A stretch of 64,000 nucleotides of DNA. Source: Methylocystis iwaonis (GTDB lineage: Bacteria; Pseudomonadota; Alphaproteobacteria; Rhizobiales; Beijerinckiaceae). Below the pieces are notes generated by a model, which worked only from the letters and a program-made list of their open reading frames with translations, was not told the origin of the DNA and made no database searches. The translations under genes and the position numbers were made by a program. Positions 9,789-32,723 of this stretch are shown piece after piece; positions within the stretch are counted from its first letter, which is position 1; every line of letters begins with the position of its first letter. The DNA lies in assembly GCF_027925385.1 (NCBI RefSeq), contig NZ_AP027146.1:16097-80096 (forward strand), in the 5' to 3' direction.

Positions 9789-10072
9789 GCGGCGCATTTG
9801 GCGGCGCAGTCTCAATCCGCGCCGTTGCCCAAAGAGGCGCCGGGTTGGCACGCGTTTGGCGTGTTATTGTCCTATTTTAGCAGATGCCTCACCGACATGG
9901 TTCCGCGGATTTACGGCCTTTGACATAGCCGCGTTCAATCGGAGTCACCGCCTCAGGCGGGAACAAATTTCGAATTTTCGCTGATTTTTTGCGCAGCTCG
10001 TCCATCAACGCGCGTCTGCGCGCGACCATCCTTTCCCGGCGAGCGAGCTGCCGGGTGGCCTTTCTGATTCTA

Positions 10073-10084
10073 CTAAACTATAAA
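10073..10084 (+). promoter_or_regulatory. CTAAACTATAAA motif upstream of orphan repC (copy f)
   Basis: This 12-mer is identical to the one at 14235-14246. It lies left of the predicted antisense RNA, in the 524-bp leader (9789-10312) of orphan repC, and could belong to the promoter that reads into repC. Confidence 0.4.
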
Positions 10085-10121
10085 CTGTGCTTCCCAGAGT
10101 CGCATGGAGGGAAGCAGGCCC

Positions 10122-10211
10122 CAAAAAGGAAAAGCCCGGCGCGAAGGCCGGACCTCTCGAATAGCTGGCTAGAAGGGACGGCAACCCCTTCACACCCGAA
10201 CACCAACCGTG
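10122..10211 (-). ncRNA. Predicted counter-transcribed RNA of orphan repC
   Basis: On the complement there is a -35 TTGCGT (10240-10245), a 16-nt spacer and a -10 TAGAAT (10218-10223). About 90 nt later comes a terminator: GTCCGGC pairs with GCCGGGC around CTTCGC, followed by TTTTCCTTTTT. On the plus strand AAAAGCCCG (10130-10138) can pair with CGGGCTTTT (10225-10233), and CCCGAACAC...GTGTTCGGG (10195-10217) forms a second hairpin. Such alternative folds are expected of a ctRNA-controlled repC leader. The RNA itself is inferred. Confidence 0.5.
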
Positions 10212-10312
10212 TTCGGGATTCTAGCGGGCTTTTCTCATTACGCAAGAGGTTTGCGCGTTTCGCGCCACGGAAATTCTTTGCCTGCTTTCCGCTTAAACGC
10301 GGAGAGCAAAGG

Positions 10313-11563
10313 ATGACCCATGCCCAATCGAACGCAACGGGCCGCCGCCGCGATTCCGCGACGAGCTGGCGCGTTGGCAAGCTTTTTGACGCGCCGCTCT
10401 TCGCCGTCTCGCGTAAGGAACTTCTAAAAGCCGCGCGGGACGCCGTGCGTGCGCTTGCGCTCGACCGCAGCGAACGTCAGCTGATCGAGTGCCTCGCGGT
10501 TTGCTTCGGCGAACAGCAGCTGGCGCATGGTCTGCTCTGCTGGCCGTCGAACACGCAGATCGAGAAGAAGACCGGCATGAGCGAGCGCACGATCCGTCGG
10601 ACGATCGTAAAGCTTCGCGAGCGCGGTGTGATCGTGATGCGCGACAGCGCCAATGGGAAGCGCTTTCCAATTTCCAACGCCAAGGGCGAGCTCGTCGACG
10701 CGAGAGGCTTCGATCTGACGCCGCTGCACGCGCGCGCCGCGGAATTCGCTGAGCGCGCTCGCGCCCTTGATATTGAAGATCGCGTGCGCCGGCAGCTGCG
10801 CGACGACCTCACGGCCGCCCGCAACGCCTTGCTCGATCTGTGTGCCGAGGATCCGTCCGGCGCCTATGCGGAAATTCTGGCGCGCGCGAAGGTCGTGTCG
10901 CGGCCCTCGAAAGCCGCCGCGCCAGAGGAATACGCCACGGCGATCGAAGCCTATGTCGAGTTAGCCGAGGAATCTCGCGCGGTCCGCTATCGGGTCGATC
11001 CTTCGGCTGAGTCGCCCGGCTCTGCCGGCCATGCGGGCCGTCACTCAGAGCAAAAATCCAAACCCTCTACCGAAGATTGCAACGCCCCTCGCCACCGCTC
11101 CCCACCGCCATCCGACCAGCCCGACTATTCCAGCAATGACGCTTTTCGAGAAAGGAAGGGGGGCGACGTTCGGCGAAACGAACGGACGACGCTGGGGACG
11201 GCGGACCGAGCGATCCCCAAGGACCTCGCCCTCTGGCTCGCCGCCTGCCCCGAGCTCGGGGAGTGGGGAACAGTCACGACGATCGAGCGCGCGGCGACCC
11301 TGGGCGCTCAATTCATTCGGGCCTGCGGGCTCGCCCGGCACGCTTTTGACGCAGCCTCTACACGGCTCGGCGCCGTCAACGCCGGCCTACTTGGTCTCTT
11401 TGTCGTTCAGCGACATGCCGATGGGGAGCAGCGCGGCGGCACGCCGATACGCTCTCCGGGAGGGCTATTCGTCATGCTCGCCCGCGAGATCGAGCGTGGC
11501 CGCCATCCACTCGAGAAGGAGTTGATCGCGATGCAGCGCCGGCGCGGGCGCAATTGGCGCTGA
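10313..11563 (+). CDS. repC: RepC-family plasmid replication initiator (orphan copy)
   Basis: 416 aa from ATG 10313 behind GGAGAGCAAAGG. A longer reading from 9989 runs through the ctRNA region and is rejected. The N-terminal half is a winged-helix DNA-binding domain (PSNTQIEKKTGMSERTIRRTIVKLRERGVIVMRDSANGKRFP, then GFDLTPL), matching the same region of the repABC repC at 52069 (RRDSPNGKRF, GFDLTPL). A Pro/Ser-rich linker is followed by the C-terminal domain LAACPELGEWG...RSPGGLFVML. There is no repAB beside it, so it is either a second replicon or a relic of a merged plasmid. In this family the origin often lies within repC. Confidence 0.85.
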   Translation: MTHAQSNATGRRRDSATSWRVGKLFDAPLFAVSRKELLKAARDAVRALALDRSERQLIECLAVCFGEQQLAHGLLCWPSNTQIEKKTGMSERTIRRTIVKLRERGVIVMRDSANGKRFPISNAKGELVDARGFDLTPLHARAAEFAERARALDIEDRVRRQLRDDLTAARNALLDLCAEDPSGAYAEILARAKVVSRPSKAAAPEEYATAIEAYVELAEESRAVRYRVDPSAESPGSAGHAGRHSEQKSKPSTEDCNAPRHRSPPPSDQPDYSSNDAFRERKGGDVRRNERTTLGTADRAIPKDLALWLAACPELGEWGTVTTIERAATLGAQFIRACGLARHAFDAASTRLGAVNAGLLGLFVVQRHADGEQRGGTPIRSPGGLFVMLAREIERGRHPLEKELIAMQRRRGRNWR

Positions 11564-15154: not shown

Positions 15155-15574
15155 GTGCCCCGACCGCGCAAGCCCGACATCGCCAAGCATCGCGTCCAGG
15201 CGGACTTTTCGCCGGAGGATTTCGCGCGGCTCGAGCAGGCCTGCGCGATTTTCGGGCTGGGTAAGTCCGATCTGCTGCGCCGGCTTGTGCGCGCGTCGAT
15301 CGACCTAGGCCCCGCGCTCAGCGTCGAGAACGGCAAGGCGCTCGCGGCGACGGCGCGGGAGCTGCGCGCCTGCGGGCGAAATATCGCGCAGATCGTCAAG
15401 GGCATTAATCTCGGCTATGCGCCGCAGCTTGCCGAGGACAAGGAGCTTTTCGTCGCCACCCACCGGGCGCTCTCCGAGATCAGCGCGCTCGTCCATGAGA
15501 TGACCGTCGCCTATGGCGCGCGGCTACGTCGCGCCGCAGGCTTAAAGCCGCTTCCCGGGACGGAGGCGTCATGA
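15155..15574 (+). CDS. mobC: Relaxosome accessory protein MobC
   Basis: 139 aa from GTG 15155, with no strong ribosome binding site. The N-terminal ribbon-helix-helix-like segment (RVQADFSPEDFARLEQACAIFGLGKSDLLRRLVRASI) is followed by ARELRACGRNIAQIVKGINLGYAP, the classic MobC NIxQIxxxxN-type signature. It would bind oriT and help the relaxase open the strand. Its stop overlaps the relaxase ATG (ATGA at 15571-15574). Confidence 0.85.
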   Translation: MPRPRKPDIAKHRVQADFSPEDFARLEQACAIFGLGKSDLLRRLVRASIDLGPALSVENGKALAATARELRACGRNIAQIVKGINLGYAPQLAEDKELFVATHRALSEISALVHEMTVAYGARLRRAAGLKPLPGTEAS

Positions 15575-17886
15575 GCGAGGCTCGAGCGAACCTCCGCGCC
15601 TCCCTTGTGCTGGAAATGAACCGGCTCGCCGTTATGGCGGACGCCGTCCGGCGTTCTCGCGCGGCGCGGGAGAAGCAGGGACTCGAGGAGCGGCCTGATA
15701 GGGTGGTAGGACTGAGGCCGTCGACGGCCTCCTCATTGGAGCATTCACGGGTCTCGGCCCAGGAGCCAGCCCCGCGTGCCCTGGCTTCGGATCGCGTTCT
15801 ACGCGGAATGACCATCACGGGCGCGGAGGATGAAGAGAAGCGGCGGCGGTTGCCGGACGTCTCCGCCAAGGGCGGGAAGCCGCCGCGCCTAAGCGTCGAC
15901 GTCGGGTCTTCCCCCGCCGTGATCGGCCGGGGGGCGCCGCTGATCTCACGGGCGCGGGCCTTGGCGCAAGGCTATCAACCGGCCGTCGTCAAGGTCGTCT
16001 CCTATGCGCATGGCGCGGCGCGGGCCTCGGCGACCGCGAATTATGTCGACCGCGAAGACGCCATTCTCGAAACCCAGGACGGCGTCGAGTTGAAGGGGCG
16101 CGCGGCGATCAACGGCGAAATCGCGGAATGGGCGAAAGATTTCGAGCCGCGCAAGGAAAGCCAGGACGTCGCCGGCGTGCGCTTCCAGGTCATGGGCCTC
16201 AAAGACACGCCGGGCGACCGCGGCACTTTGGAGAAGGCGATGTCAGCCGCCTTTGTCGGGCATCGCTACGCTTATCGCATCAACGCCTTGACGGATGGCG
16301 CGATCGAAGCGCGGGCCGTCGTCGCCTTTGCCGGAACGCTCCGCGAAGGGGAAACGGACACGCGGGAGCGCTTCTATGTAACCGAACGCCACGTCGCCGA
16401 GGGTTTTGAAGCCCGCGTTTTCGCGCCGAAATCCGAGGCGCGAATGAAGGCTCGCATTGAGGCGGCGACCGGGATCGGCCAGCACCGCATCGTGCTCGAG
16501 CCCGGCGCGCCTGGCAACGGCCCAACGAGCGTCGTCGATCGCCTGACGCGGCTCCAGGAGCATGGCGCGGCGGCCTCAGATAGCGGCGCCCTCCTCGACA
16601 ACGCGAGCGCCATCCAGGCCGAGTCGCGCGCCTGGCGGCGGGACCTGCGCTCCTTCAAGCCACGCGACACGATGCACCTTATCGTCTCCACCAAGGCGGG
16701 CGTCGACGTCGGCGCCTTCAGGACCGCCGTGCGGGGCTTCGTCCATGAGCAGTTCGCCGCGCACAAATTCATGTTCGGCGTGCACACCGACAAGGCGGAC
16801 GCTGGGCATGTCCACGCCCATGTGATCGTCGCTGTCCGGGACGCCGAGGGCGTGAAAATTCATTCCGGGCCGCAGGATTTTCGACACTGGCGCGAGACCT
16901 TCGCGGAGCACGCCCAGATGCAAGGGCTAAAGATCGTTGCGACCTCCGCGGCCGAGCGCGCTTCGTCGCAGAGCTATGGCCCTAAGGACAAGGCGATCGT
17001 CGACGCCGCCGATCATCCTCGGCCGGGCCGAGAGGCGCGGGATCGCGCCTATGCGAGCGACCCGGCCAACAAGACGCTCATCGACAATGCGCGCCGACGC
17101 ATCGAGATTGCGCGAACAAATCCAATTCGCATGCCGGCCTCGGAGCGTCAGCTCGCCGTCGCGAACGACTCGGCCTCAACGTGGCGACAGCTGGCGCAGG
17201 AGGAACCGCAGAGCGCGACGGCAAGCGCTCTTGCCCAGCGGACGCAATTCTCTCAAGCCGCCGGGCAAGCAATCGCCACGCTCGTCAATCAGGCTCTCAT
17301 CACCCAAACCACGAGGAGCAGCGCCATGCCGATCACCGCCGCGCAAATGGGATCCGACCTCAAGCTGCTCAACGAAGCCGTGGACAGGGTCGGCGCCGTC
17401 CTGCCGGCGGATACGAGAGCCGCATTTTTCGAGCGCTCGGGGCGCTATCTCGAAAAGCTTGCGGCGCGCGTCGATATGCAGCGTGAATTCGAGGCCAAAT
17501 CCTCGCAAGCCGCGCTCGCTCCTGTCGTGGAACAGTCCGCGGGAATCGCTCGCGTCGAACAACGCGAAGCGATCAGCGCGCAGAGGCTCGTGGAAAGGGC
17601 CGAGACGGCAACGAATGCGACACCGGCAGACGCGCGTGATATCGACACGTCTCGCGTCATCGTGCGGGAAGCCCGGAGAACAGCAGCTGGCAAGCTAGCA
17701 GGTACGCACGTGGTCGTTGAAGCTCAGCGTGCGCTAACGGCCATTGCCGTGGAGCCTGCGGAGGCTTCGCTCGCTGTCGATCCAAGGCTCGAAGTATTAA
17801 GGCGCCAACAAGCAGAAAAGCTGACTCAAAGTGCTGCCGAGCGAGAGGCTACGGTTAAGGCAATTGAGGCCGAGATCGAAGAGTGA
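15571..17886 (+). CDS. MOBP-type relaxase (VirD2/TraI-like) with long internal insertion
   Basis: 771 aa. Motif I lies at residues 141-160 (KVVSYAHGAARASATANYVD, candidate nicking Tyr158). The metal-binding motif III is H405-x-D407 followed by H413, H415, H417 (HTDKADAGHVHAHVIV). The spacing between Tyr and the His triad is about 255 residues, far longer than in VirD2; an extra domain (about 195-310) lies between them. The C-terminal 300 residues are helical and Ala/Glu/Arg-rich, ending EAEIEE, and probably carry the secretion signal read by VirD4. It nicks at oriT and pilots the strand through the T4SS. It is coupled to mobC. Confidence 0.8.
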   Translation: MSEARANLRASLVLEMNRLAVMADAVRRSRAAREKQGLEERPDRVVGLRPSTASSLEHSRVSAQEPAPRALASDRVLRGMTITGAEDEEKRRRLPDVSAKGGKPPRLSVDVGSSPAVIGRGAPLISRARALAQGYQPAVVKVVSYAHGAARASATANYVDREDAILETQDGVELKGRAAINGEIAEWAKDFEPRKESQDVAGVRFQVMGLKDTPGDRGTLEKAMSAAFVGHRYAYRINALTDGAIEARAVVAFAGTLREGETDTRERFYVTERHVAEGFEARVFAPKSEARMKARIEAATGIGQHRIVLEPGAPGNGPTSVVDRLTRLQEHGAAASDSGALLDNASAIQAESRAWRRDLRSFKPRDTMHLIVSTKAGVDVGAFRTAVRGFVHEQFAAHKFMFGVHTDKADAGHVHAHVIVAVRDAEGVKIHSGPQDFRHWRETFAEHAQMQGLKIVATSAAERASSQSYGPKDKAIVDAADHPRPGREARDRAYASDPANKTLIDNARRRIEIARTNPIRMPASERQLAVANDSASTWRQLAQEEPQSATASALAQRTQFSQAAGQAIATLVNQALITQTTRSSAMPITAAQMGSDLKLLNEAVDRVGAVLPADTRAAFFERSGRYLEKLAARVDMQREFEAKSSQAALAPVVEQSAGIARVEQREAISAQRLVERAETATNATPADARDIDTSRVIVREARRTAAGKLAGTHVVVEAQRALTAIAVEPAEASLAVDPRLEVLRRQQAEKLTQSAAEREATVKAIEAEIEE

Positions 17887-18171: not shown

Positions 18172-19065
18172 CTACATCGAAATTGAAACGTAATTGGATT
18201 CGAAAATGCGTTGTTCGCTTTCGATCGCAAGCCGGAGGTGGCAGTAGAGTGCCCAATACTTGCGCCACAGGGGAGCCGTCGGTGGCAAATACTCGATCGG
18301 CAATCCCATTGTCCGCGCTGCCTCCCAGCCAATCATTTGCCCATGCGAAGGATAGCGGTTGATATCCATCAGTTCGCTGGCGATCTTCGAGAAGTTAGCT
18401 CCACGTCGCTTCAGAAGATTTTCTGCAAACAGGCGGGCGCGGTCTCTGACCGATTGAAATTTGCGCACGATCACTGGATCAAATTTATCGAAGGTGAGGC
18501 GGGTCGCTTCGTCGTCGGAAGTTTGCGTTAGCGCCTGCCTTGCCTCCTCGTAGGCGGTGAGATATGTCAGTACCGAATAGACGATGTCATGGCCATTCCC
18601 GTCTTTGGAAGATACCTGAGGATCAATCGGTCCTAGCTCGGAGGAATCGCTCATGATGATAGTGTTGGCGCCCAGCGCCATCAGTGTGCCCGCGCTCTTG
18701 GCATAATCGGGCACGATGACACGCAGCTGCCCCTCCTCGCCGGTCGCATTCCTGACCAGCGTGATCAGTTTCTCGGCGGCATCCACATCGCCGCCAGGCG
18801 TGTGCAGCATCAAATCAATCGGTTCTCCAGGTGTGACGTTGTGGAGCATGTCAACGAACCCGAGCGTGTCGAATCGGTCGACCGGGGCCTTAGTGCCGGC
18901 GACATAGCAAAGAAGCTTCGGCTGGCTAGCCTCGATTTCACGGATCAAGGTCTGGCGCTGATAGCGCGCCGCATTCATTGCCGTGAACATCGGGGTCTTT
19001 TCGATCGCTCGCGCCGGCTGGGGCGTGAGCGGTTGCGATTCGACGTCTCTTCCATGGTCATTCAT
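18172..19065 (-). CDS. SDH_sah-family ClpP-like serine protease of the ubiquitin-like operon
   Basis: 297 aa from ATG 19065, chosen for its ATGA overlap with the preceding gene. It has a ClpP/crotonase-like fold of the serine-dehydrogenase-proteinase family: DLMLHTPGGDVDAAEKL (oxyanion loop, 88-92), YAKSAGTLMALGA with the candidate nucleophile Ser124 after Lys123, and SELGPIDPQ (Asp149). There is no signal peptide or membrane segment apart from a weak hydrophobic patch. It is last in the operon. Likely roles are processing the Ubl precursor or cleaving modified targets; both are inferred. The 285 bp between it and the relaxase (17887-18171) hold no gene I can support. Confidence 0.85.
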   Translation of the reverse strand: MNDHGRDVESQPLTPQPARAIEKTPMFTAMNAARYQRQTLIREIEASQPKLLCYVAGTKAPVDRFDTLGFVDMLHNVTPGEPIDLMLHTPGGDVDAAEKLITLVRNATGEEGQLRVIVPDYAKSAGTLMALGANTIIMSDSSELGPIDPQVSSKDGNGHDIVYSVLTYLTAYEEARQALTQTSDDEATRLTFDKFDPVIVRKFQSVRDRARLFAENLLKRRGANFSKIASELMDINRYPSHGQMIGWEAARTMGLPIEYLPPTAPLWRKYWALYCHLRLAIESEQRIFESNYVSISM

Positions 19066-19397
19066 CGGTCGCTGTCCTTGGTCCATATGATTTTGCCGTT
19101 ACGAACAAAATAATGACAGCGTCTGTCTGTACCGCGATAATCGACGCTAGGATAGATACCTAATCGAGACGAAGCATTCAGCGTCCAGTAGGGCCGGCGG
19201 ACCGGGTCAGAGTTCAACATAATTCTATGTCCGGTACGACACGGACAGTCGAAGACAATCCATTTGATATGGCGCAGATCTCCGACTAAAACGATGGCGT
19301 TACGCGGCAACCGTTGGGGCACCTCGTCGGCAGAGGATACTGAGCCGATTGTACGCCAGCGCCAGAAAGGCAGCCATTGCCACCACGCGATTTTCAT
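19062..19397 (-). CDS. DUF6527-type small zinc-binding protein
   Basis: 111 aa from ATG 19397, overlapping the E1 stop as ATGA. The Trp-rich N-terminus (WWQWLPFWRWR) is followed by a compact domain with C51-P-C53-x3-H57 and C94-H95, probably one zinc site, as in treble-clef or rubredoxin-like proteins. It matches my memory of DUF6527 proteins encoded beside bacterial E1/E2/Ubl genes. An E3-like or adaptor role is a guess from neighbourhood. It overlaps the protease gene by 4 nt at its end. Confidence 0.7.
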   Translation of the reverse strand: MKIAWWQWLPFWRWRTIGSVSSADEVPQRLPRNAIVLVGDLRHIKWIVFDCPCRTGHRIMLNSDPVRRPYWTLNASSRLGIYPSVDYRGTDRRCHYFVRNGKIIWTKDSDR

Positions 19398-20779
19398 ACT
19401 GTCACCCACAGTTGTCCAAGGAACGGGTCTTCATCGCCGGCACCCCATTTGCCCTGTGCTTGATGGCAGTAGTGAGCGTCATGTGGGAAAGCGCGATTCG
19501 TTGAAATCTCGCGTTCGTGGAGTCTGAGCAGCGTCTCGGTAGGTCGCTCCGGGGGGCCATATCCGATCAGGCGATCAAGCAATTCATTCACGGCCGCGGC
19601 GGCGACGGCGGTGGTGAACGCCACCACCGCCGGCTCAACCCGACCAAGCGCGGGGGCGTATCCTTCGTTGGCCAACCGTTGTCTCTCGTCAGGCGACTTC
19701 ATCTCGGCGGATGCACGACCTAAGTCGACTCGGTTACGGCAAACCAGACAGCCCGCGCCAGGCGTCAGCGTCGTGACCCGCGCGTCAATACCAATGAGCG
19801 TGCCCGCTTGATCGCTGCTTAACAATACCCCAACGTCTATTACCGGGGTCAGGAGATAGGTAGAGATTCTGGAGAGCACGAGCCGGCCAGCATTGTCGTC
19901 GGTGCATCCGAAAATCAGGTCGCAGCTGCGCAGCGCCCAAGCAACGCTCCGAGTAGTAATCATCCCGTCCACGATAGAACAGTCGAGGTCTGAAGCGATT
20001 GCCAGGAGATGATCGCGTAGCACCTCAACCTTTAGTTGACCGACGCGCCCAGGCGTGGAGCCGTAGACCCGTGTGACATTGCTCTCGGATAAGCTGTCGT
20101 TATCAATCAGCAGCAGATGGCGAACGCCCAGCCGGACGAGCTGCTCGGCGACAGCCGACCCTGTCCCTCCGGCTCCGACGATGCCAATGCGCAGGTCTCC
20201 GAGAATCGTCTGGATAGCTGGGCCGAAAGCGCGAACGTTACGGTCAAACAGCGCTTCCGGCAGAGTGGCCTGCCGCGCGAAGGCTGGCATGAGCTTCCAG
20301 CGCTCGCCGACCACCCACAACCGGTCAATCGACGACGTCTCCCCGGTCTCCGGTGTCAACTCGCCGCTGAATACGTAATCCGCGCCTCGCGGAGATGCGA
20401 TCAACGTTCCGTATAAGCCTGAGCCACTGCGCAGCTGAAAGAGGTCAGCTATCTCGCGATCGACCTGACGATCGTGATTGCTCGGCAACGGTGCACCCTC
20501 TTCGCCGGGATGGGTGTGAAACCAAATTGGAACGGCGTGATCCGCTTCGGCTGCACCGAGCGCCGGCACATAACCTTGAGAAGCTATCAGCAGATGGTGC
20601 GGGCTCTGTTCGATGTAGGCCTCCGGCGGAACCGGATGCAAGCTACGCGCGAGAAGTCGGACATCTCGCCCCGCCTCGATTCGGCGAGCGAGGAGAACAG
20701 CAGCGCATTCCATCGAATTGCGCGAGGCCGTCGCGACCTCCTCCGAGAGCGGACCCGGAATTACGAGCGTCGTTGTCAT
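19394..20779 (-). CDS. JAB/JAMM peptidase fused to ThiF/E1-like adenylyltransferase
   Basis: 461 aa from ATG 20779 (ATGA overlap with the E2-like gene). The N-terminal 165 residues are a JAB domain with a complete JAMM set: Glu24, His88-Thr-His90-Pro, Ser100, Asp103. This is consistent with active metal-dependent isopeptidase activity. Residues about 180-430 are an E1/ThiF domain with GAGGTGS (202-208), LLLIDND (Asp226/228), GCTDDNAGR (291-299) and a CxxC at 344/347 with C438 near the end. Where ThiF/MoeB carry the thioester Cys after the CxxC, this protein has LANEGYAPALG with no Cys. One polypeptide thus holds both the activating and the deconjugating enzyme. Confidence 0.9.
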   Translation of the reverse strand: MTTTLVIPGPLSEEVATASRNSMECAAVLLARRIEAGRDVRLLARSLHPVPPEAYIEQSPHHLLIASQGYVPALGAAEADHAVPIWFHTHPGEEGAPLPSNHDRQVDREIADLFQLRSGSGLYGTLIASPRGADYVFSGELTPETGETSSIDRLWVVGERWKLMPAFARQATLPEALFDRNVRAFGPAIQTILGDLRIGIVGAGGTGSAVAEQLVRLGVRHLLLIDNDSLSESNVTRVYGSTPGRVGQLKVEVLRDHLLAIASDLDCSIVDGMITTRSVAWALRSCDLIFGCTDDNAGRLVLSRISTYLLTPVIDVGVLLSSDQAGTLIGIDARVTTLTPGAGCLVCRNRVDLGRASAEMKSPDERQRLANEGYAPALGRVEPAVVAFTTAVAAAAVNELLDRLIGYGPPERPTETLLRLHEREISTNRAFPHDAHYCHQAQGKWGAGDEDPFLGQLWVTV

Positions 20780-21165
20780 GCTGCCAGCGCCGCAGCGGCG
20801 GCGGCGACCTCTTTGCGGACGAGCGCCAGATAGCTTTCCAGCGAGTCGAGCCCGGAGCGCCACTGGCCCGGATTGAGGTGGCGTGACCAGCGCTGCCAAG
20901 TGCGCCCAAGGTAGACCTCTTGAGATTCAGTTGCGGCGATAAGGCGCCCATCGATGCGGCGCACAGCCGGCTCAAACCACCACATGTCAGGTGCGATGTC
21001 GGGGTAACCTGGCGACAGACGCAGGAGAAGATCGGCGCTTGAGTGGTTGAATCCCTCCGGCAAGGAGAAGGCGGGAATGACAACGCAAATCATGCCACCC
21101 TCCAGCGTCACGGAGCTGCCCGGCGCTCGCGCCTCAAGGTAATTTTGATCGATAGTAGGCAACAT
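20776..21165 (-). CDS. E2-like protein, prokaryotic E2 family E type
   Basis: 129 aa. A UBC-like core is visible: MICVVIPAFSLPEGFNHSSADLLLRLSPGYPDIAPDMWWFEP (beta strands and the P-x-x-P turn), then TWQRWSRHLNPGQWRSGLDSLESYLALV, the WxRH-WrpG pattern I associate with Prok-E2_E. The only cysteine is Cys27 in the first strand, not at the usual catalytic site after the P-x-x-P loop. The stop overlaps the JAB-E1 start (ATGA), and the start lies 14 nt after the Ubl stop. It likely receives or presents the Ubl; the chemistry is uncertain. Confidence 0.8.
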   Translation of the reverse strand: MLPTIDQNYLEARAPGSSVTLEGGMICVVIPAFSLPEGFNHSSADLLLRLSPGYPDIAPDMWWFEPAVRRIDGRLIAATESQEVYLGRTWQRWSRHLNPGQWRSGLDSLESYLALVRKEVAAAAAALAA

Positions 21166-21179
21166 CAGCGTACTCCCTA

Positions 21180-21449
21180 CTAGCGGCCGGGGTTGATCTG
21201 GGCCGGTGCAGTGAAGAAACGCAAGCCGTTGCGCATCTCCACCTTGGTATCCGTATCGATTTTCACATCGGATCCTCCCGGCACCACTTCGAAAAGGTCA
21301 CGGTCTGGCCCGATGTCAGGCTCCGGTAAACGCCGCAGCTCGCCGCCAGTCAGCACCATTTCTCGAACTTTGTAGTTTGTGCGGTCGATCTTGATCTCGA
21401 ATGCCTGGGGACGATCAGGCCTTAGCGCGTCCACACGATCATTATCCAT
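21180..21449 (-). CDS. Ubiquitin-like protein, single multiubiquitin-type domain
   Basis: 89 aa from ATG 21449 with GGAGGT upstream. One beta-grasp unit of the multiubiquitin type: FEIKIDRTNYKVREMVLTGGELRRL...DRDLFEVVPGGSDVKIDTDTKVEMRNGLRFFTAP. The C-terminus is INPGR, with no terminal Gly-Gly, so it is conjugated through a different end, needs trimming, or acts non-covalently. It is first in the operon, so probably the most abundant product. Multiubiquitin proteins often carry two or three repeats; this one has a single unit. Confidence 0.8.
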   Translation of the reverse strand: MDNDRVDALRPDRPQAFEIKIDRTNYKVREMVLTGGELRRLPEPDIGPDRDLFEVVPGGSDVKIDTDTKVEMRNGLRFFTAPAQINPGR

Positions 21450-21532
21450 TTTGCCACCTCCATGTCTTGATACCCTGATACCACGACACCACGTATATTG
21501 ACAAGCAGTCTGATTTGGTTCAGAAAAGCACT
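21450..21532. promoter_or_regulatory. Divergent promoter region of the Ubl operon and RHH gene
   Basis: Two tandem TGATACC units (21468-21474 and 21476-21482, 8-bp period) lie next to TTGACA on the plus strand (21498-21503). On the complement, TTGTCA, a 17-nt spacer and GTATCA could drive the Ubl operon, with the TGATACC repeats overlapping its -10 region. A repressor binding the repeats, for example the adjacent RHH protein, would shut the operon; this is inferred. Confidence 0.4.
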
Positions 21533-21739
21533 ATGAAACAAGTCAAAGCGATGACTGTCCGCCTCTCCGAAGATCAGGCTCAGGCCCTCGAGATGCTCGC
21601 AAGCGTTGAAAATCGGCCCGTGTCGGACGTGATTCGTTCTGCTATCACCACCCACATTGAGACACGCCGTCGCGATCCAAAATTTCAGGCCGGGCTTAAG
21701 GACCGTATCTCGCAAGCGCGCAAGCTTCTCGACCGATGA
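21533..21739 (+). CDS. CopG-like ribbon-helix-helix protein
   Basis: 68 aa from ATG 21533. TVRLSEDQAQALEMLASVENRPVSDVIRSAITTHIETRR is a textbook RHH domain; a short basic tail follows. It is divergent from the Ubl operon and 52 nt upstream of the Fic antitoxin. It may be a local repressor for either unit, or the remnant of a toxin-antitoxin pair. Confidence 0.7.
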   Translation: MKQVKAMTVRLSEDQAQALEMLASVENRPVSDVIRSAITTHIETRRRDPKFQAGLKDRISQARKLLDR

Positions 21740-21791: not shown

Positions 21792-21995
21792 ATGAAGAAG
21801 ACACCGAAGCGTTTTGGCGGCACTGATCTCGTCCTCGGGCAGCAGACGTTCGCTGCCATCTCGGCGGTGGAAGGGTTAGGCCTCAGCGTCGCGAGCCGCA
21901 AGCGGCTGGCCGACATGAAGAAGCGCAAGCTATCCACCGATCAACAGCGGTCCGAAGTTATCCGCGCCTATTTGGACGCTAAGTCGCGTAGGTGA
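21792..21995 (+). CDS. Fic antitoxin, VbhA-like
   Basis: 67 aa from ATG 21792. The pattern FAAISAVEGLGLSVASRKRLADMKKRKLSTDQQRSEVIRAYLD resembles class I Fic antitoxins, whose inhibitory helix places a Glu in the Fic ATP site; here the candidate is the Glu of SAVEG. The residue four before that Glu is Ile rather than the usual Ser/Thr, so inhibition should be tested. It overlaps the toxin gene (GTGA, 21992-21995). Confidence 0.7.
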   Translation: MKKTPKRFGGTDLVLGQQTFAAISAVEGLGLSVASRKRLADMKKRKLSTDQQRSEVIRAYLDAKSRR

Positions 21996-22570
21996 GAGCG
22001 CTCGGCTACGACGCATTCGACGACCCCTACGCCTACAAAGGCATAAACACGCTCAAGAACAAGCTCGGCCTGCGCGATCCGGATTTGCTTGAGGCGTTTG
22101 AACTCGAAATGACGGCGATCCGAGCGCGCGAGCCTTTGCCACGCGGAGTTTACGACGCGCTTCACTACCGCCGCGTCCACCGCCACCTGTTTCAGGACGT
22201 CTACAGCTGGGCCGGAAAATATCGAACTGTGCGTACGTCTAAAGGAGGTAACCCGTTTTGCTTTCCCGAGCACATCGACGCACAAATGAAGCGCTTGTTT
22301 GGGACGCTTGGGATAGTTTTGAATTCGCCACATGCTGATGACTTCGCCCGTGAGGCAGCGCGTTTTCTCGGTGAGTTAAACGCGATTCATCCGTTCCGAG
22401 AGGGCAATGGGCGCTCCCAGCTGACCTTTATAGCGATGATCGGGGAACGGGCCGGCTATCCGTTAGCCTTCGCGCGTGTGAAGCGCGAAAGCTTTCTGCC
22501 GGCGATGATCCGCAGCTACGAGGGCGACCTTAATCCGTTGATCGCCGAGCTTCGCCTCCTACTTGGCTAA
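21992..22570 (+). CDS. fic: Fic-domain AMPylating toxin
   Basis: 192 aa from GTG 21992. It carries the full Fic motif HPFREGNGR (133-141) with catalytic His133, and the upstream flap FQDVYSWAGKYRTVRTSKGGNPFCFPEHI. Class I Fic toxins transfer AMP to targets such as gyrase or topoisomerase IV in relatives; the target here is unknown. It is coupled to the antitoxin and works as plasmid addiction or defence cargo next to the Ubl operon. Confidence 0.9.
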   Translation: MRALGYDAFDDPYAYKGINTLKNKLGLRDPDLLEAFELEMTAIRAREPLPRGVYDALHYRRVHRHLFQDVYSWAGKYRTVRTSKGGNPFCFPEHIDAQMKRLFGTLGIVLNSPHADDFAREAARFLGELNAIHPFREGNGRSQLTFIAMIGERAGYPLAFARVKRESFLPAMIRSYEGDLNPLIAELRLLLG

Positions 22571-25648: not shown

Positions 25649-27691
25649 CTAAGCTGCGCTCCAGCCTTTTCGGATTTTCTCCGCAATTGCCATCAATTCC
25701 TTCAGAGCGAATCCAACGTCTTCGCCCGATCCCGAGGAAGCAGAGTGGCTCGCCCGCCTCGCCTCGGCGTTTATCCCCGCGATCGCATCCGAAAGCTCGG
25801 CGCTGATGCCCACAGGGCCCCTCTGTGTGCTCTGGTTCTCTGAGCTTATAGCGGGTCCCGCGCTCGCCAGCGAGGGTAGGATGGAGCCAGACTCACCTTG
25901 CGGTGCCCTCGAGACCAGCGTCGATTTTGAATGAATCTCGAGCCATGCGGAGGGTTCCGTCCACCGCCGCAAACTTGGCGGGTCGCCTCTCGCGGCCCCC
26001 GCTTCATCGACGAGCCGCCGCATTTGGTGATCACGAAAAAAATAGAGCTTCCCAATCTCGAACGGCCGCGCATTGGCGACGAGCAGGATCGACCTATCCC
26101 TCGGCATCCGCGTCAGCTCCTGCGGCCGTCGCAGCGGCGCCGCCATGTGCCCGAGCGACACGCGAGACTGAGACAGGCCTGCTCCCATCATCTTCGTCGT
26201 GTGCGTCGCCGTGTACGTCCCAAGCGCGTCCGAGACATATTTTGCGGTCTCATTGTCGTTGATTGCGACGAAGAGCTTTAGCGCCGCGCCGGCAACAAGC
26301 GTCTCGCGCATCGCCTTGCCGTACGTCTCGTCGAGCTGGGAGATGTTTTGCAGCACGATCGTCATGCGGAAGCCATAGCCAGCGCTGACCGCGATCTTCG
26401 AGGCGAGAGACGACATCCTACCAAGCGCGTAGAATTCATCGAGGAGCAGAAGGACCTGATACGGCTCGTCGGCGCCAGGAAGATTGCGCATCAGCACATC
26501 GTGGATCTGCTGAAACAAGATGCGAATAAGCGGGCGGTAGCTTTCGAGATCGGCAAGCGGCGAGCCGATAAAGATCGACATGCGCTTGCGGCGCAGGTCG
26601 CGGATGTCGAAATCCGACGTTTCGGTCGCGGCGCAGATCAGCGGCGAGTCCCAGGCCGCAAAGGCGTTGTTGACGTTGAACATGACCGAGCCGCGGGTGC
26701 GGTCGGGAATCGCTACGAATTGATTGAAGGCGTCAAGCACCCAGGACGGGACAGAACCGTCATTTTCCGTCCCGGCGATGGCTTTGAGCACATCGGCGAT
26801 GTCGTGCCCAGTCGAGATCACTCGCACGGCGGAGCGAATATGCCGCGCCTTCTCGAAATGGATGCTGGTCATCACATAGCCGAGCAGTGCCGCGACGGTC
26901 TTGCGCGCGGCAAGCGTCCATTCATTCTCGACTGAGCCGGTCGCGACGAGGAAGGTCGCGATATTGGCGCAGTCCGTCGCCATTTCGGGACCGGGCCGCA
27001 CATAGTCGAGCGGATTGTAGCGGTGGGAGGAGGCGGAGCCCGGCGCGAAGACGAAAACACTGTCGCCCTTCGCCGCACGCGCCGCGCCGAAGGATTTCAG
27101 ATTCTCGCTCTTGATGTCGAGCGTCACCATGGAGCCTGGCCAGGCGAGGCCGTTCGGGATAACAAAACTCACGCCCTTGCCGGTGCGGGTCGGGCCGACG
27201 ATCAGCAAGTGCCCGGGGTCGTTCGAGATCAGCGTTTGTCCATTAAGACGGCCGAGGATGATCCCGCTTCTCGCGGCCAGACCCGCACGGCGTGCCTCGG
27301 GGAGCGTTCCGAAGCGCGCGTCGCCATGCAGCGTCGATCTGCGGTTTGCGTAAAGAAAGATCGCTAGGGCGAGGAAGAGCGCGAGCACGACGCCGGCGGC
27401 GAGGGCGCCGTTTTCCAGCGCGAGTTTGGCAACGCGCTCGTCCTGGGCATAGACATAAAAATGCTTGTAGGCGAGCGGAAAGCCATGGTCGAAGGAGATC
27501 GGCGGAAACTGCTCGAGGTCGAAGCGGGGATTTTCCGTCGTGACCCTCTTGAGAAGCGCCCATTTCTGCGCAGGCCTGGAGAAGCCGGAGCGAAAGCCGG
27601 TCACGATCGCATAGGGCACGGCCCAAAGCAGCGCCGCGGCAATGAAAACAAACAGCCCGATAACCAGCCGCTCGAGATGTTCCCGCATCAT
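25649..27691 (-). CDS. virD4: VirD4/TraG-family type IV coupling protein
   Basis: 680 aa. Two N-terminal membrane segments (about 9-33 and 95-115) precede a RecA-like ATPase with Walker A GPTRTGKG (166-173) and Walker B LLLLDEFYALG (about 400). It recruits the relaxase-DNA complex to the secretion channel. It is last in the virB operon, starting 14 nt after the virB11 stop. A C-terminal tail of about 100 Ser/Ala-rich residues may bind substrate. The relaxase gene lies 7.8 kb away on the other strand, the two separated by the defence-type cargo. Confidence 0.92.
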   Translation of the reverse strand: MMREHLERLVIGLFVFIAAALLWAVPYAIVTGFRSGFSRPAQKWALLKRVTTENPRFDLEQFPPISFDHGFPLAYKHFYVYAQDERVAKLALENGALAAGVVLALFLALAIFLYANRRSTLHGDARFGTLPEARRAGLAARSGIILGRLNGQTLISNDPGHLLIVGPTRTGKGVSFVIPNGLAWPGSMVTLDIKSENLKSFGAARAAKGDSVFVFAPGSASSHRYNPLDYVRPGPEMATDCANIATFLVATGSVENEWTLAARKTVAALLGYVMTSIHFEKARHIRSAVRVISTGHDIADVLKAIAGTENDGSVPSWVLDAFNQFVAIPDRTRGSVMFNVNNAFAAWDSPLICAATETSDFDIRDLRRKRMSIFIGSPLADLESYRPLIRILFQQIHDVLMRNLPGADEPYQVLLLLDEFYALGRMSSLASKIAVSAGYGFRMTIVLQNISQLDETYGKAMRETLVAGAALKLFVAINDNETAKYVSDALGTYTATHTTKMMGAGLSQSRVSLGHMAAPLRRPQELTRMPRDRSILLVANARPFEIGKLYFFRDHQMRRLVDEAGAARGDPPSLRRWTEPSAWLEIHSKSTLVSRAPQGESGSILPSLASAGPAISSENQSTQRGPVGISAELSDAIAGINAEARRASHSASSGSGEDVGFALKELMAIAEKIRKGWSAA

Positions 27692-27705
27692 CGGCGCTCG
27701 ACCTT

Positions 27706-28755
27706 TCAGCGCGCCCGCGCCGCGGCGCCCTGCTTCCAGGCCGCCATGCGCGAGAAATAGACCTCAGACGTTCCGCGCCAGCCGCCCAGCCGGCTTTGTT
27801 GGACCACGATTGGCAGGACCGTCTTCACATAGGCGATGATCTCGTCCTTGCGCAGGCCGAGTCCGCTCTGCATGACCATCAGCGCGAGCTGCTCGAACGC
27901 GCCCGCGGCGCTGTCGGCGTGAATCGTTGTGATCGAGCCGGGATGGCCGGTGTTGATCGCCCGCAGGAAGGAATAGGCCTCCGACCCCCGGATTTCGCCA
28001 AGGAAAATCCGGTCCGGGCGCAGGCGCATGGCCGCTTGGAGCAGGCTCTCAATCGTGACCCGCGCCTGGCCCTGGTCGCCCTTGGAGGCGACGAGCGGCA
28101 GGAAGTTTTTTTGCAGCGGCCTTACCTCGCGCGTGTCTTCGATCGTGACGATCCGCTCCTCGAGGGCCACCTCCTTTAAAATAGCGTTGAGGAAAGTGGT
28201 CTTACCTGACGAGGTTCCGCCGGAAAGCAAGATGGAATAGCGATTGCAGACAGCGAGCCGGATGAAGGCCTCGATCCGCCCCGCGTCCAAATGCTCGCAG
28301 AGCTCGCTATCAATCTCAGACAACTCGTTGCCGACCGAGACCTTGACTCGCTCAAACGAGCCCATGCGGCGGTAGTCTTCCAGCATGAGCTCCTTGATGA
28401 CCTGCTTGCGGATTGCGAAGGCTCCGCCGTTCGTCGTCGCCGGCGGCAGCACCCCCTGAAAGCGTTCGCCGGTGGCGAGCGCAGCCGAGAGCAGCGGGTG
28501 CTCGCTATTAACGCTCTGGTTCGAAAAGCCCGCGACGCGCTCGCAGAGATGCCGAATCCAGTCACTCGTGACCGCAGGCGCCTCGATCCGCCGCATCGAC
28601 GACTCCCCCATGACCTCGACGAAAAGCTCGCCCGGGCCATTGGCGACGATTTCGACAACGGTATCGTCGTTCAGCCATTGCCGCAGCGGCCCGAGCGCGT
28701 CCTCGAGAAAGACTGTGTGGGCGTCGGCGTCCCTATCGACGAGCCTTGGCTTCAC
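27706..28755 (-). CDS. virB11: VirB11 secretion ATPase
   Basis: 349 aa. GGTSSGKT (179-186) and LRPDRIFLGEIRGSEAYSFLRAINTGHPGSITTIHAD (Walker B, Asp/His boxes) are the VirB11/GspE signatures. It forms a cytoplasmic hexamer that powers pilus assembly and substrate transfer with VirB4. Its start overlaps the end of virB10 by 23 nt. Confidence 0.95.
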   Translation of the reverse strand: MKPRLVDRDADAHTVFLEDALGPLRQWLNDDTVVEIVANGPGELFVEVMGESSMRRIEAPAVTSDWIRHLCERVAGFSNQSVNSEHPLLSAALATGERFQGVLPPATTNGGAFAIRKQVIKELMLEDYRRMGSFERVKVSVGNELSEIDSELCEHLDAGRIEAFIRLAVCNRYSILLSGGTSSGKTTFLNAILKEVALEERIVTIEDTREVRPLQKNFLPLVASKGDQGQARVTIESLLQAAMRLRPDRIFLGEIRGSEAYSFLRAINTGHPGSITTIHADSAAGAFEQLALMVMQSGLGLRKDEIIAYVKTVLPIVVQQSRLGGWRGTSEVYFSRMAAWKQGAAARAR

Positions 28756-30034
28756 GGCGCAGCTCCCTCAGTTCCTCTTTGACGGGGTCGGGATAAAATA
28801 GGGAGAAGTCGAGATCCTTCTTGATGAAGACGACGATGCGCGCGCCCTGGTCGACGTAAACGGTGGGCGGGATGTTGATCGAATCCCGCAGCGCCTCTTG
28901 CGAGAGCCGGGTCAAGGATTGCGAAACCTGCTGCGCGCCGATCTGCCGGGCGTTGATCAAATTTTGATTGGGCAAAGTCGTGATTGCCGTGAGCTGACCG
29001 GTGAAGGGATCGAGCGCATATTGGCTTTGTTGCTGGTAGCTGTTGACGTTCTGGCCAAGCGTCGCGACGAATTGCGAGACGCCGCCGATGACGCTGAGCG
29101 CGACTGCCGCCCCGAAACGCTCGACATAGTGATTGTCGAGGAAGCCGGAGTTCCCGGCCCGGCCGAGATCGTCGGTCCCCGGCGAACCCAGCTGAACGGA
29201 GACGCCGTCGGGGCGCAACAGCCGCGTCCAGACCACGAAAACCCTCGTCTGCCCGCGGGCGAGCCCGGAGCGATATTCGCCGATCAAGGTTGATCCCGAG
29301 GGGATGAGCACGCGCCGACCGTCGAAGGACCAGGCGTCTTCGCGGGTGATCGCTTTCACGGAGCCCGGAAGGTCGCTCTGGATCGCGGTCAGCAGCTCGC
29401 CGCGCACCATCGTGCCTTGCGGCACGAGGGCGTCGATCCGGTCGTTTTTCGTCGCGATGGATCGCTCGACGCCGGCGGAGCCGGCGCGGGCGAGAAAGCG
29501 CCGGTTAGGGTCATCATCGGCCGTTTCCGAGGTCCCACCCGGGGTCCTCTCATCGTTCCCTGCCGCCGCGCCGAGCGCGCCATCGGCGACGAGCTGGGGC
29601 GCCCGCAGCCGCTCCCAGCGCCGCCGCTCCTCTTCGGCGGCGAGACGCCGGGCCTCGACGTCGTCGACTTTCGGTTCGCTCTCCGTCTCGAAGGCCGGCG
29701 GCGCGACAAGAGGCGTGGGCGGGGCGACCGGCGGCGGGGGGACCTCGGCGGCTGGGGGCGGCGGAGGGGCCGTCATCTTGCCGAGATCCAGATTCGGGCG
29801 CTGGTCGATCGCCGGCGCCGGAAAAGCGGTGGTGTGGAATTCCTCTTTCTCCGGCGCGGTCATCGGCCGCGTCTCCTTATGCTGGGAGGCGTAAACCATC
29901 CAGCCGACGAAGAGCGCTGCGGCGCTGGGGACGCCGATCTTGATGAAATTTCCCATGACGTGTGACGAGCGCTGGACCGAGCTTCTTGCCGCATCTTCGA
30001 GCTCGAGCGAACGATAATGTTCGGGCGACGGCAT
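28733..30034 (-). CDS. virB10: VirB10 channel scaffold protein
   Basis: 433 aa. A short cytoplasmic N-terminus, a membrane helix (about 33-48, FIKIGVPSAAALFVGWMVYA), a long proline-rich periplasmic linker (PPPPPAAEVPPPPVAPP region) and the C-terminal beta-barrel domain (RRVLIPSGSTLIGEYRSG...TRLLRPDGVSVQLGSPGTD). It spans both membranes and links the channel to the ATPases. Confidence 0.93.
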   Translation of the reverse strand: MPSPEHYRSLELEDAARSSVQRSSHVMGNFIKIGVPSAAALFVGWMVYASQHKETRPMTAPEKEEFHTTAFPAPAIDQRPNLDLGKMTAPPPPPAAEVPPPPVAPPTPLVAPPAFETESEPKVDDVEARRLAAEEERRRWERLRAPQLVADGALGAAAGNDERTPGGTSETADDDPNRRFLARAGSAGVERSIATKNDRIDALVPQGTMVRGELLTAIQSDLPGSVKAITREDAWSFDGRRVLIPSGSTLIGEYRSGLARGQTRVFVVWTRLLRPDGVSVQLGSPGTDDLGRAGNSGFLDNHYVERFGAAVALSVIGGVSQFVATLGQNVNSYQQQSQYALDPFTGQLTAITTLPNQNLINARQIGAQQVSQSLTRLSQEALRDSINIPPTVYVDQGARIVVFIKKDLDFSLFYPDPVKEELRELRREAKARR

Positions 30035-30043
30035 GTTCGCTCC

Positions 30044-30862
30044 TTACCAAAATTGAAAGCCGTTCGAGCCCACGCGCTCCGGCGCATAGGGCTCGAGGCC
30101 GTCAGGCTCATGGAGATTGTTCAGCCGCCGATTGAAGACGCAGGTCGCTTCCGCGCCGTTGCGCAGCGTCCACTGGAAATTGACCTTGTCGACGATGACG
30201 TAGGGACCCTCTTTATGGAAATTGACGACGCTCTCCTTGCGGTCGTGATCGACAACGAAGATCGCCGGCGTCTCCTGATCTGCGGCGAAGCGAAACCAGG
30301 TTTTGACGCCATCGTCGAAGACCGCGGTCGGCTTTGAGAGCGAGGAGCCCTTATAGGCGTAATCGCTGTTGGCGTTGGCGACGTTGAAATTCTTCGTATT
30401 GGGATAGCTTGCGCGCTCCTTGGCGAGCGCGATGAGCCTGGCGTCGGCCTCGTCCTCAGGGAAGCGGAAGCGCACCTTGAACACTTGCGCCCTTCCCTGC
30501 CGGAAATCGGCGCGCAGAAGGAACGAATAGATGCGCTTCGACGTGACCACGTTCAAATTGGAAAAGGCGTTCTTCTCGACCGGCTTCACGAAGATGATGT
30601 TGCCGCGCTTGTTGGGCTCGACCTTCCAGGCGACAGAGTCGCCGAGCGCCAATGTCTCGATCTTCTCGTCCTCGCCCAGCACAATCATTGTGGAGACGCC
30701 ATAGGAGCCGTTGATGGCGACGACCTCGTCGGGGCGGAAACTGACCTCCCGCACCCGAGCGTCGTAGCGGCCCGCCCAAGGCGACTCCTCAGCCTGCGCG
30801 AGGCTCGGAGCGCCGGTCGCGAGCAGACCGAGAAGGAGGGGGAAGCCAAGATGCCAGGTCAT
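30044..30862 (-). CDS. virB9: VirB9 outer-membrane complex protein
   Basis: 272 aa with a signal peptide (LGFPLLLGLLATGAPSLAQA). VirB9/CagX signatures: YDARVREVSFRPDEVVAINGSYGVSTMIVLGEDEKIETLALGD, then NLNVVTSKRIYSFLLR and a C-terminal NGAEATCVFNRRLNNLHEPDGL. It forms the outer-membrane core with VirB7 and VirB10. The start overlaps the virB8 stop (ATGA). Confidence 0.93.
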   Translation of the reverse strand: MTWHLGFPLLLGLLATGAPSLAQAEESPWAGRYDARVREVSFRPDEVVAINGSYGVSTMIVLGEDEKIETLALGDSVAWKVEPNKRGNIIFVKPVEKNAFSNLNVVTSKRIYSFLLRADFRQGRAQVFKVRFRFPEDEADARLIALAKERASYPNTKNFNVANANSDYAYKGSSLSKPTAVFDDGVKTWFRFAADQETPAIFVVDHDRKESVVNFHKEGPYVIVDKVNFQWTLRNGAEATCVFNRRLNNLHEPDGLEPYAPERVGSNGFQFW

Positions 30863-31635
30863 TTCTCGGCTCCCGTCGCGGTCGGGACCGTTTCCTGGTC
30901 GCGGCGGTATTCGGTCGTCTGGAAGCCGAGCGGATTGTCGAAGCGCATCTGGTTCGACATGGGCGCGCCGGAATAGCGAAAACGCACCAGCGCCACCCAG
31001 TCGCGATGGACGGTGTTGGAGGCGGATTTTTCATCCGTGCCAAAGCGCACCAGCGCCGTGCGCTGGTTTGGGAACGTCACCGATTTGACCGAGACGGCGA
31101 CTTCCGTGGTGGCGCCGAAGGTTTTGACCGGGTTCTTCGGATTGGCCGGGCTGAAAATCTCGGTGAGATCGCGGGCGGCGTCGCCGGTCGAGAGCAGCTG
31201 CGCGAGATCAAAATTGTCCTTGAGCGCCTTGGGATCGTAAGTCTCGCGCGCCTTCACATAGCGCACGACGTTGAACATGGTGACGGCTTCGTCTTGGCTG
31301 AGCGCTCCCTGCGCCATCGGCCGCTTGACCTCGACGAAGCCTGAGGATTTGTCGACGACGATCATATAAGGCTCAAAGGTCTTGAGCGGCGCGAGGCTTG
31401 CGAGCGAGACGATCGCGCCAAGCGCGATGACGGTCATCACGGCGGCGATGATCCAGGCGATCGAGAGCGACGCATTTTTCCAGAGCGTCCGGTCCTCTTC
31501 CCAGGTCCCGCCCTCCTGGTAGTAGCGCGCGCCCTCCCCTGTCGCGGGGGCTCCAGGGCCCGGCGCAATGGGGGCGAACTCTTCTCGCAGGACCCTGCGG
31601 GGGAGGCGGCGAAACGGCAATTCCCACATCATCAA
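30859..31635 (-). CDS. virB8: VirB8 inner-membrane assembly factor
   Basis: 258 aa. One membrane helix (about 55-75, SIAWIIAAVMTVIALGAIVSLASL) follows a 50-residue cytoplasmic part; the NTF2-like periplasmic domain contains VVRYVKARETYDPKALKDNFDLAQLLST and ALVRFGTDEKSASNTVHRDWVALVRFRY. It nucleates channel assembly. It starts inside the virB6 stop (ATGA). Confidence 0.93.
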   Translation of the reverse strand: MMMWELPFRRLPRRVLREEFAPIAPGPGAPATGEGARYYQEGGTWEEDRTLWKNASLSIAWIIAAVMTVIALGAIVSLASLAPLKTFEPYMIVVDKSSGFVEVKRPMAQGALSQDEAVTMFNVVRYVKARETYDPKALKDNFDLAQLLSTGDAARDLTEIFSPANPKNPVKTFGATTEVAVSVKSVTFPNQRTALVRFGTDEKSASNTVHRDWVALVRFRYSGAPMSNQMRFDNPLGFQTTEYRRDQETVPTATGAEK

Positions 31636-32723
31636 ATCTGGTCCATTTTCTTGGCGAGCACATCGGCGGCGCGTTGGCCATAGATGCGCTCATAGCGGGC
31701 GCGCGTGACGCGATCCTGCAGCGACCGATCGACGCCGAAGCGTGCGCCGTAGCCGAAAGGCACGCGGGCGCGATAGGCGTTTGAGGCGACCATCGCGCCG
31801 TTCGCGGTGACCGAGCGCCAGAGCCCGCCGATCGTCGTCGCATAGAGCGGAATGCCGCCGGCGATCGCCGCGGCCATGCCGGGGAGCTGGCTCAAGAGGA
31901 AAAGGCCGGTGAGGCCGACGAGAAAGAACGGCGCGAGCGCGCCCCAATCGACCTGGCCGCTGTTGATGGCGGCGCCAAGACCCGCGAAGATCGGCTGCGT
32001 GACGGTGAGGTAGAAGGCGAGAAAGGCGTAAACCAGCACCTGCAGCATCGCATACAGGACCGCCGCGGAGAGCCAACCGGAGAAAAAGCGCGAGGAGGCG
32101 TCGAAAAGCAGCAGCAGGATCATCAAGGGCGCGATGCCGAGGATCAGCCACAGAAAGACCTTCGAGAGAATGATCGTGAAGGTGGCGACCGCCAGAAACA
32201 GCGCGATGATGATCACGCAGGCAAGGCCGACGAGGGCCGAGGCGAAGGATTGCAGGCTGAACGCGAAATGCAGCTGGAAACCTTGCGCAACCTGGTTCCA
32301 GATCGCTTCCAGCGCCGAGACGACGGCGTTTGGCGAGGTGTAAGCATTATTGTTGCCGACGCTGAGCAGCCGATTGCCGATCGCAGCTGGTCCGTCATTG
32401 AAGAGTGTATAGGCAAAACTCGTGAAGTCGCTCCAGGAGGTCGCGAGCGCATAGATCACGAAGGCCCTAAACAGCCGAAAGGCGGCGTCGGTCGCCGTTC
32501 CCGTAGCGGTTCCGGCCCAAACGCCAAATCCCCAGAAGATCACATAGGCGATGAGGAGGAGCGAGGCGATCGAAGCCCCTGCCCCGCCCGCCGTCACATC
32601 CCGAGCAAGCTCCTGAAAGGCGCCCTGAACATAGGTGCAGCCGGTCTGGTCGACGCCAGAAAGGATCTGCGGGATGATTCCGGACCCGTAATTCTGCGTC
32701 GGGCAGTTCTGCAGCACGGTCAC
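31632..32723 (-). CDS. virB6: VirB6 polytopic channel protein
   Basis: 363 aa from GTG 32723; a longer reading reaches into the lipoprotein gene and is rejected, since VTVLQNCPTQNYG is the natural start and GTGA overlaps the lipoprotein stop. Six to seven hydrophobic segments of the TrbL/VirB6 type (IASLLLIAYVIFWGFGVWAG, LACVIIIALFLAVATFTIIL, FLWLILGIAPLMILLLLF). It conducts the substrate through the inner membrane. Confidence 0.88.
   Translation of the reverse strand: MTVLQNCPTQNYGSGIIPQILSGVDQTGCTYVQGAFQELARDVTAGGAGASIASLLLIAYVIFWGFGVWAGTATGTATDAAFRLFRAFVIYALATSWSDFTSFAYTLFNDGPAAIGNRLLSVGNNNAYTSPNAVVSALEAIWNQVAQGFQLHFAFSLQSFASALVGLACVIIIALFLAVATFTIILSKVFLWLILGIAPLMILLLLFDASSRFFSGWLSAAVLYAMLQVLVYAFLAFYLTVTQPIFAGLGAAINSGQVDWGALAPFFLVGLTGLFLLSQLPGMAAAIAGGIPLYATTIGGLWRSVTANGAMVASNAYRARVPFGYGARFGVDRSLQDRVTRARYERIYGQRAADVLAKKMDQI

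Follow-up and report, generated by a model that had tools for sequence, protein, structure and literature searches.

A conserved plasmid-borne subtype of the Bub ubiquitin-like conjugation operon that includes a predicted ClpP-fold protease and a probable RHH regulator

Relation to described ubiquitin-like operons

Among the bacterial operons that encode ubiquitin-like (Ubl) conjugation, type 6e comprises, in the part of Iyer et al. 2006 that treats it (PMC1779556), a Ubl protein with one to three beta-grasp domains, a UBC/RWD-fold protein without the catalytic Cys, a JAB-E1 fusion and a metal-binding-type protein. We analysed a 64,000-nucleotide stretch of Methylocystis iwaonis (contig NZ_AP027146.1, positions 16,097 to 80,096; hereafter the window), in which five minus-strand open reading frames (ORFs; 21449-18172) encode, in order, a Ubl, an E2-like protein, a JAB-E1 fusion, a DUF6527 protein and an SDH/ClpP-like serine protease. 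By sequence comparison the first four genes are an operon of type 6e, now called Bub (bacterial ubiquitination-like). The notable part is the fifth gene: the operon represents a conserved plasmid-borne Bub subtype with its own ClpP-fold protease and a ribbon-helix-helix (RHH) regulator. The preliminary description of this DNA had claimed a leftward, tightly coupled five-gene unit, and the ORFs and junctions are as it said, with 14 nt between the Ubl and E2-like genes and ATGA overlaps at the remaining three junctions. The combination of genes that it singled out is real and recurrent, but four of the five genes had already been described as type 6e or Bub.

The operon and type 6e share an N-terminal JAB domain fused to the E1 domain, a beta-grasp Ubl, a Cys-less UBC/RWD protein and a sporadic distribution, as well as a metal-binding-type gene, here taken to be the putative metal-binding DUF6527. 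They differ in the protease and the RHH gene, neither of which is in the table row or section on type 6e in PMC1779556. With Citrobacter Bub the operon shares an E2-like and a JAB-E1 protein related to BubB and BubCD, followed by DUF6527. In two Citrobacter plasmid Bub operons, however, Ubl and E2 are fused, two upstream genes resemble CapK/CapS by annotation, and there is no SDH gene, whereas in the window Ubl and E2 are separate, the RHH gene is divergent, and the SDH gene comes after DUF6527. Ye et al. reportedly describe the Ser-oxyester chemistry of Bub. The logic of Ubl, E1, E2-like protein and JAB is also that of the Bil (bacterial ISG15-like) defence operon, and our Ubl profile matches the BilA Ubl (PDB 8u38) at 0.0097. 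In Bil, E1 and JAB are two distinct proteins, and the E2 has a catalytic Cys. Compared with that general make-up, the window differs in having JAB fused to E1 and an E2-like protein without a conserved Cys.

A predicted ClpP-fold protease as the fifth gene

The fifth gene (18172..19065, minus strand) encodes a protein of 297 aa, versus 304 aa from an in-frame upstream ATG in the ORF list, that matches SDH_protease at 63.5 bits (cut-off 31.3). Its predicted structure is a ClpP fold, and it has this fold and the KSAGT nucleophile motif in common with the SDH/SppA/NfeD/ClpP proteases. It differs from these in its tie to a Ubl operon, in an invariant H241 and in having no hydrophobic or transmembrane-like segment. 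The predicted catalytic Ser-Asp-His residues (S124/D148/H241) are invariant in 42/42 aligned SDH rows; all our alignments were built from readable copies only, and this one omits L022, L023, L024 and L026.

Relatives were collected via E1, among plasmids and genome contigs, or via the DNA of the region, which returned the same five plasmid records as the top E1 plasmid matches. The loci were scanned with profiles of all five families and with tblastn. The close group, with E1 at least 50% identical, consists of 21 cassettes (L019-L039, with one and the same copy in L025 and L026). The SDH gene is found in 20 of them, directly after DUF6527 in 19 and beyond the RHH gene in one (L033). The operon is not a chance arrangement, because the five-gene order recurs in 19/21 cassettes (the broken genes of L022-L024 being counted). 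The preliminary description had read the locus as a protein-tagging gene set on a conjugative-type plasmid, joined by a ClpP-like protease and a metal-binding-type protein; the neighbourhood survey shows these genes together, and they recur as a set. The role in defence that it also suggested gains no support from these results, and its alternative of plasmid control is conjectural. Judging by record titles, the hosts of the close group include Alpha- and Gammaproteobacteria, Acidobacteriota and Actinomycetota, with many metagenome-assembled genomes (MAGs) among them, and a MAG labelled Geobacter.

As a contrast set we used 26 other Bub-type loci: L040-L052 from the E1 genome contigs, L063-L067 from wider cuts found via E2, and L068-L075, hand-chosen from the E1 match lists. 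L051 (an E1 fragment only) and L040 (whose contig ends soon after DUF6527) are uninformative, which leaves 24; L041-L043 are alike. SDH is adjacent in 0/24 of these informative operons, a count that excludes four Rhizobium records; L045 has a weak SDH match (1.2e-4) about 2.3 kb off on the other strand. The Rhizobium records (H117, H118, H119 and H121) stand against this contrast. They represent a second Bub subtype, and they are also in the E1 list, of whose 40 records eight different ones were viewed, but they were first met via SDH and are therefore uncounted. In the three Rhizobium plasmids viewed (L054-L056) SDH is the fifth gene, directly after DUF6527, and in the fourth record the E1 and SDH matches lie about 0.5 kb apart.

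A sample of 397 genomes of the order contains 18 with an E1 match at 1e-20. Both genomes with a close E1 have SDH, namely that of the window (G000) and G727 (65% over the larger piece, with SDH about 0.6 kb from E1). No SDH was found at 1e-20 in the 16 genomes with a distant E1, a threshold too strict for SDH proteins at the distance seen in the Rhizobium subtype (the R. gallicum match, at E 6e-15, falls short of it). Of the 34 rows in the E1 tree, the 19 from the SDH clade group together with 100/100 support, and Rhizobium L054 and L055 join L004 and L006. Because of this grouping of Rhizobium rows that have SDH, we conclude that the link with SDH has been gained or lost on more than one occasion. 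Among the clade members, distances between E1 proteins correlate with those of SDH (r 0.86, 17 loci), the E2-like protein (0.87, 19), DUF6527 (0.88, 19), Ubl (0.76, 17), RHH (0.73, 18) and Fic (0.84, 9), and in every case 0/2000 permutations reach the observed value; the correlation of E1 with its partner genes thus points to a cassette that travels as a unit.

Some further features of the protease gene and of Bub surroundings were seen. In L023 and L024, whose cassettes hold other broken genes, the SDH frame breaks near the same place, at about residue 190. In two loci (L025:8796-11450 and L039:8696-11341) the gene directly after SDH encodes a protein of the PD-(D/E)XK nuclease superfamily (about 885 aa), and in L021 a RecB-like/AAA protein has that place. 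An anti-phage dCTP deaminase-type gene is near the Bub operon in two loci (L030:7664-9304 and L075:8270-9970).

Predicted conjugation proteins and DUF6527

The gene identities given in the preliminary description each have Pfam support; only the JAB domain scores below its cut-off, and its JAMM motif is complete. The Ubl (BubA-like; 21180..21449, minus strand; 89 aa) is a single beta-grasp domain that ends in INPG-R and matches Multi_ubiq at 28.0 bits (cut-off 24.5). Its sequence alone has no match in the PDB, and the family profile matches 9cd2 at 2.5e-4 (best single domain 0.016). NPG is present in 19/19 aligned rows, followed by 1-9 further residues; this alignment omits L024 (a fragment), L026 (a copy of L025), L029 (start unclear) and L033 (two domains and a 15-residue tail). 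Two Ubl domains are in tandem in L022, L033 and L038, and L036 has a second Ubl-like ORF upstream, compared with the single domain of the window.

The E2-like UBC-fold protein (BubB-like; 20776..21165, minus strand; 129 aa) matches Prok-E2_E at 120.7 bits (cut-off 25) and Citrobacter BubB (9eae/9eav) at 1e-13. Its naming as E2-like is borne out by the BubB match but needs qualifying, since it is without the catalytic cysteine of a classical E2: there is no conserved Cys, and a QRWSRH motif including S94 is invariant in 32/32 aligned rows. The JAB-E1 fusion (BubCD-like; 19394..20779, minus strand; 461 aa) matches ThiF at 121.1 bits (cut-off 28.1), Prok-JAB at 21.2 bits (under the cut-off of 25) and Citrobacter BubCD (9ea4/9ea5) at 8e-26. 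The ORF list has a longer TTG start for this gene; the ATG at 20779 overlaps the E2 gene. The JAMM residues E24, H88, H90, S100 and D103 and the E1 residues D226, R237, K250 and D294 are present in 34/34 aligned rows. The E2 and JAB-E1 alignments omit the clade members L022, L024 and L026 and some near-copies among the distant loci.

We assign the pathway to the Bub kind because the E2-like and JAB-E1 proteins match Citrobacter BubB and BubCD and the Ubl profile matches multi-ubiquitin Ubls. The beta-grasp and UBC folds, which the preliminary description had made a point of, are accordingly predicted from matches to solved multi-ubiquitin Ubls and solved BubB, and the conjugation part of the pathway is, as far as sequence comparison goes, well supported.

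The DUF6527 protein (19062..19397, minus strand; 111 aa) matches its Pfam family at 63.9 bits (cut-off 23.6). The alignment suggests a possible metal site formed by C51, C53, H57, C94 and H95. Its AlphaFold2 model (mean predicted local distance difference test score 87.0) consists mostly of strands, and comparison with the PDB gave no clear match. The spacing in the window is C51, C53-x(3)-H57-x(36)-C94-H95, compared with the C-x(3)-C-x(35-38)-H-x(2)-C printed for type 6e. In most of the distant DUF6527 rows C-x(3)-C is followed by C-x(2)-H, which departs from the printed order as well.

Proposed pathway and alternatives

The best explanation in our view, with a probability of about 0.5, is a Bub-type (6e) Ubl conjugation pathway of a distinct subtype, in which a ClpP-fold serine protease dedicated to the pathway, and unaccompanied by an ATPase gene in the operon, would act on marked proteins. 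An RHH repressor on 8-bp repeats would hold the operon low. Once expressed, the JAB domain would remove the residues after the NPG of the Ubl, and the E1 domain would adenylate the newly exposed C-terminal Gly. The Ubl would then move to the E2-like protein, most likely as an ester on Ser94, which we propose because that protein has no conserved Cys, and from there to targets. In the least certain step, the SDH protease would be the effector on Ubl-marked proteins, with DUF6527 as an adaptor or in target recognition. We suggest only tentatively that the whole amounts to a self-contained analogue of tag-and-degrade systems, spread across phyla by plasmids, in which one operon would provide the tag, the activating and transferring enzymes (working through serine esters), a JAB that trims the tag and a ClpP-fold protease that needs no ATP and recognises proteins bearing the tag.

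Other bacterial Ubl operons that we viewed pair the conjugation genes with a JAB peptidase, and this subtype adds a ClpP-fold protease. It allows a direct test of whether bacteria link Ubl tagging and proteolysis in a single operon and of what purpose the Bub pathway serves, and a small complete cassette with a likely repressor is a simple system for reconstitution.

Several observations weigh against a dedicated protease for marked proteins. L030 has the first four genes without SDH or RHH, so these four can exist alone. The SDH frame breaks in L022, L023 and L024, and it is broken in Rhizobium L055 and L056 as well. The distance correlations would also result if the genes were inherited together. 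In the order sample, G573 and G747 have SDH without E1, and phage, Thermus, Paracoccus and Pseudomonas are among the contexts in which SDH relatives are found without annotated Ubl genes. Finally, the SDH protease may have a different role, in processing the Ubl or in deconjugating it.

This last point is the core of the main rival, which we consider rather unlikely: SDH as a second Ubl-specific peptidase or esterase, whose task would be to mature the C-terminus of the Ubl or to undo conjugates, possibly ester-linked, and not to destroy targets. All 19 aligned Ubls need C-terminal trimming, the protease gene is closely linked to the Ubl operon, and serine hydrolases can cleave esters. However, the JAB domain keeps its metal-binding and catalytic residues in all 34 rows, and the 24 other Bub operons viewed have JAB and no adjacent SDH.

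An addiction or plasmid-maintenance module, in which JAB and SDH would have to counterbalance an otherwise harmful conjugation and the RHH protein would be an antitoxin-type autoregulator beside a Fic module, is improbable. The operator-like repeats of RHH, the Fic neighbour in 11/21 cassettes and the plasmid location in several cases agree with it, and Iyer et al. 2006 (PMC1779556) suggest that operons of this sort serve in addiction or protection. Nonetheless, no toxin was identified in the operon, the Fic motif is altered, and Fic was not found in 10/21 cassettes, some of whose contigs end early. Less probable still is that SDH is merely often carried along in this mobile cassette and serves an unrelated function in stress. 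The SDH genes apart from E1 or annotated Ubl genes speak for this, and against it stand the ATGA overlap of SDH in the window, its place directly after DUF6527 in 19/21 cassettes and its recurrence in a second Bub subtype.

Regulator, neighbouring genes and plasmid setting

An RHH (CopG-type) protein is encoded divergently from the operon (21515..21739, plus strand; RHH_1 23.3 bits, cut-off 20.5). The gene is divergent in 19/21 related cassettes and was not found in L024 and L030. The promoter region between it and the Ubl gene (21450..21514) has a TTGTCA box and a TGGTATCA site. A TG[GAC]TA[TC]C site is present in 19/19 of the RHH-Ubl intergenic regions (shuffles: mean 0.9, maximum 4), the pattern being derived from the very regions in which it was counted. 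An exact tandem pair of sites at 8 bp occurs in 12/19 regions, compared with 0 pairs in 300 dinucleotide shuffles. The window is not among the 12; it has one exact TGGTATCA site over the -10 position, flanked on both sides by imperfect 8-bp repeats (TGGTGTCG and GGGTATCA). TTGTCA is found in 16/19 regions, and the sites follow it at 13-30 bp, where they cover the -10 position. Since RHH repressors commonly bind short repeats, it is likely, by analogy, that this RHH protein is an autorepressor that controls the operon.

In the window the RHH gene occupies the place of Cap control genes. Part of PMC13373217 gives CapW or CapH/CapP beside 219/544 Bub operons and CapK/CapS beside 59/544; these control genes are thus frequent but no defining feature of Bub. 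The Bub operon of Nitratireductor (L071) has a different RHH gene annotated upstream, which does not match this RHH family at 1e-3.

A Fic protein (21992..22570, plus strand; Fic 61.3 bits) is a frequent neighbour. Its motif in the window, HPFREGNGRSQL, is noncanonical; in place of the last Arg of the canonical motif, all nine readable relatives (two of which are the same copy) have L or M. The Fic protein is probably not part of the pathway itself.

The operon is flanked by a relaxase gene (15571-17886) on one side and, on the other, by type IV secretion system (T4SS) genes for a TraG-type coupling protein, TrbI, VirB8 and CagE/TrbE/VirB (within 25649-36951), in agreement with the siting between relaxase and T4SS genes first proposed. 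The contig from which the window comes (C5) is 80 kb long and belongs to a 4.48-Mb genome. A second contig of this genome (C4, 83 kb) encodes identical E2, E1 and SDH proteins, so that the operon is on both. The two contigs are plasmid-like and 98.4% identical over 41.9 kb, with 100% identity over 12.5 kb. At E <= 1e-20 both E1 and SDH are absent from G187, the one genome of the same genus in the sample; this, with the duplicate contig, fits a mobile gene set. C5 also encodes two RepC-type replication proteins (9989-11563 and 52054-53409), of which only the second exceeds both RP-C cut-offs. An N6 DNA methylase/Eco57I-type protein is encoded at 43220-46492, and an M78 peptidase-HTH protein at 46507-47610.

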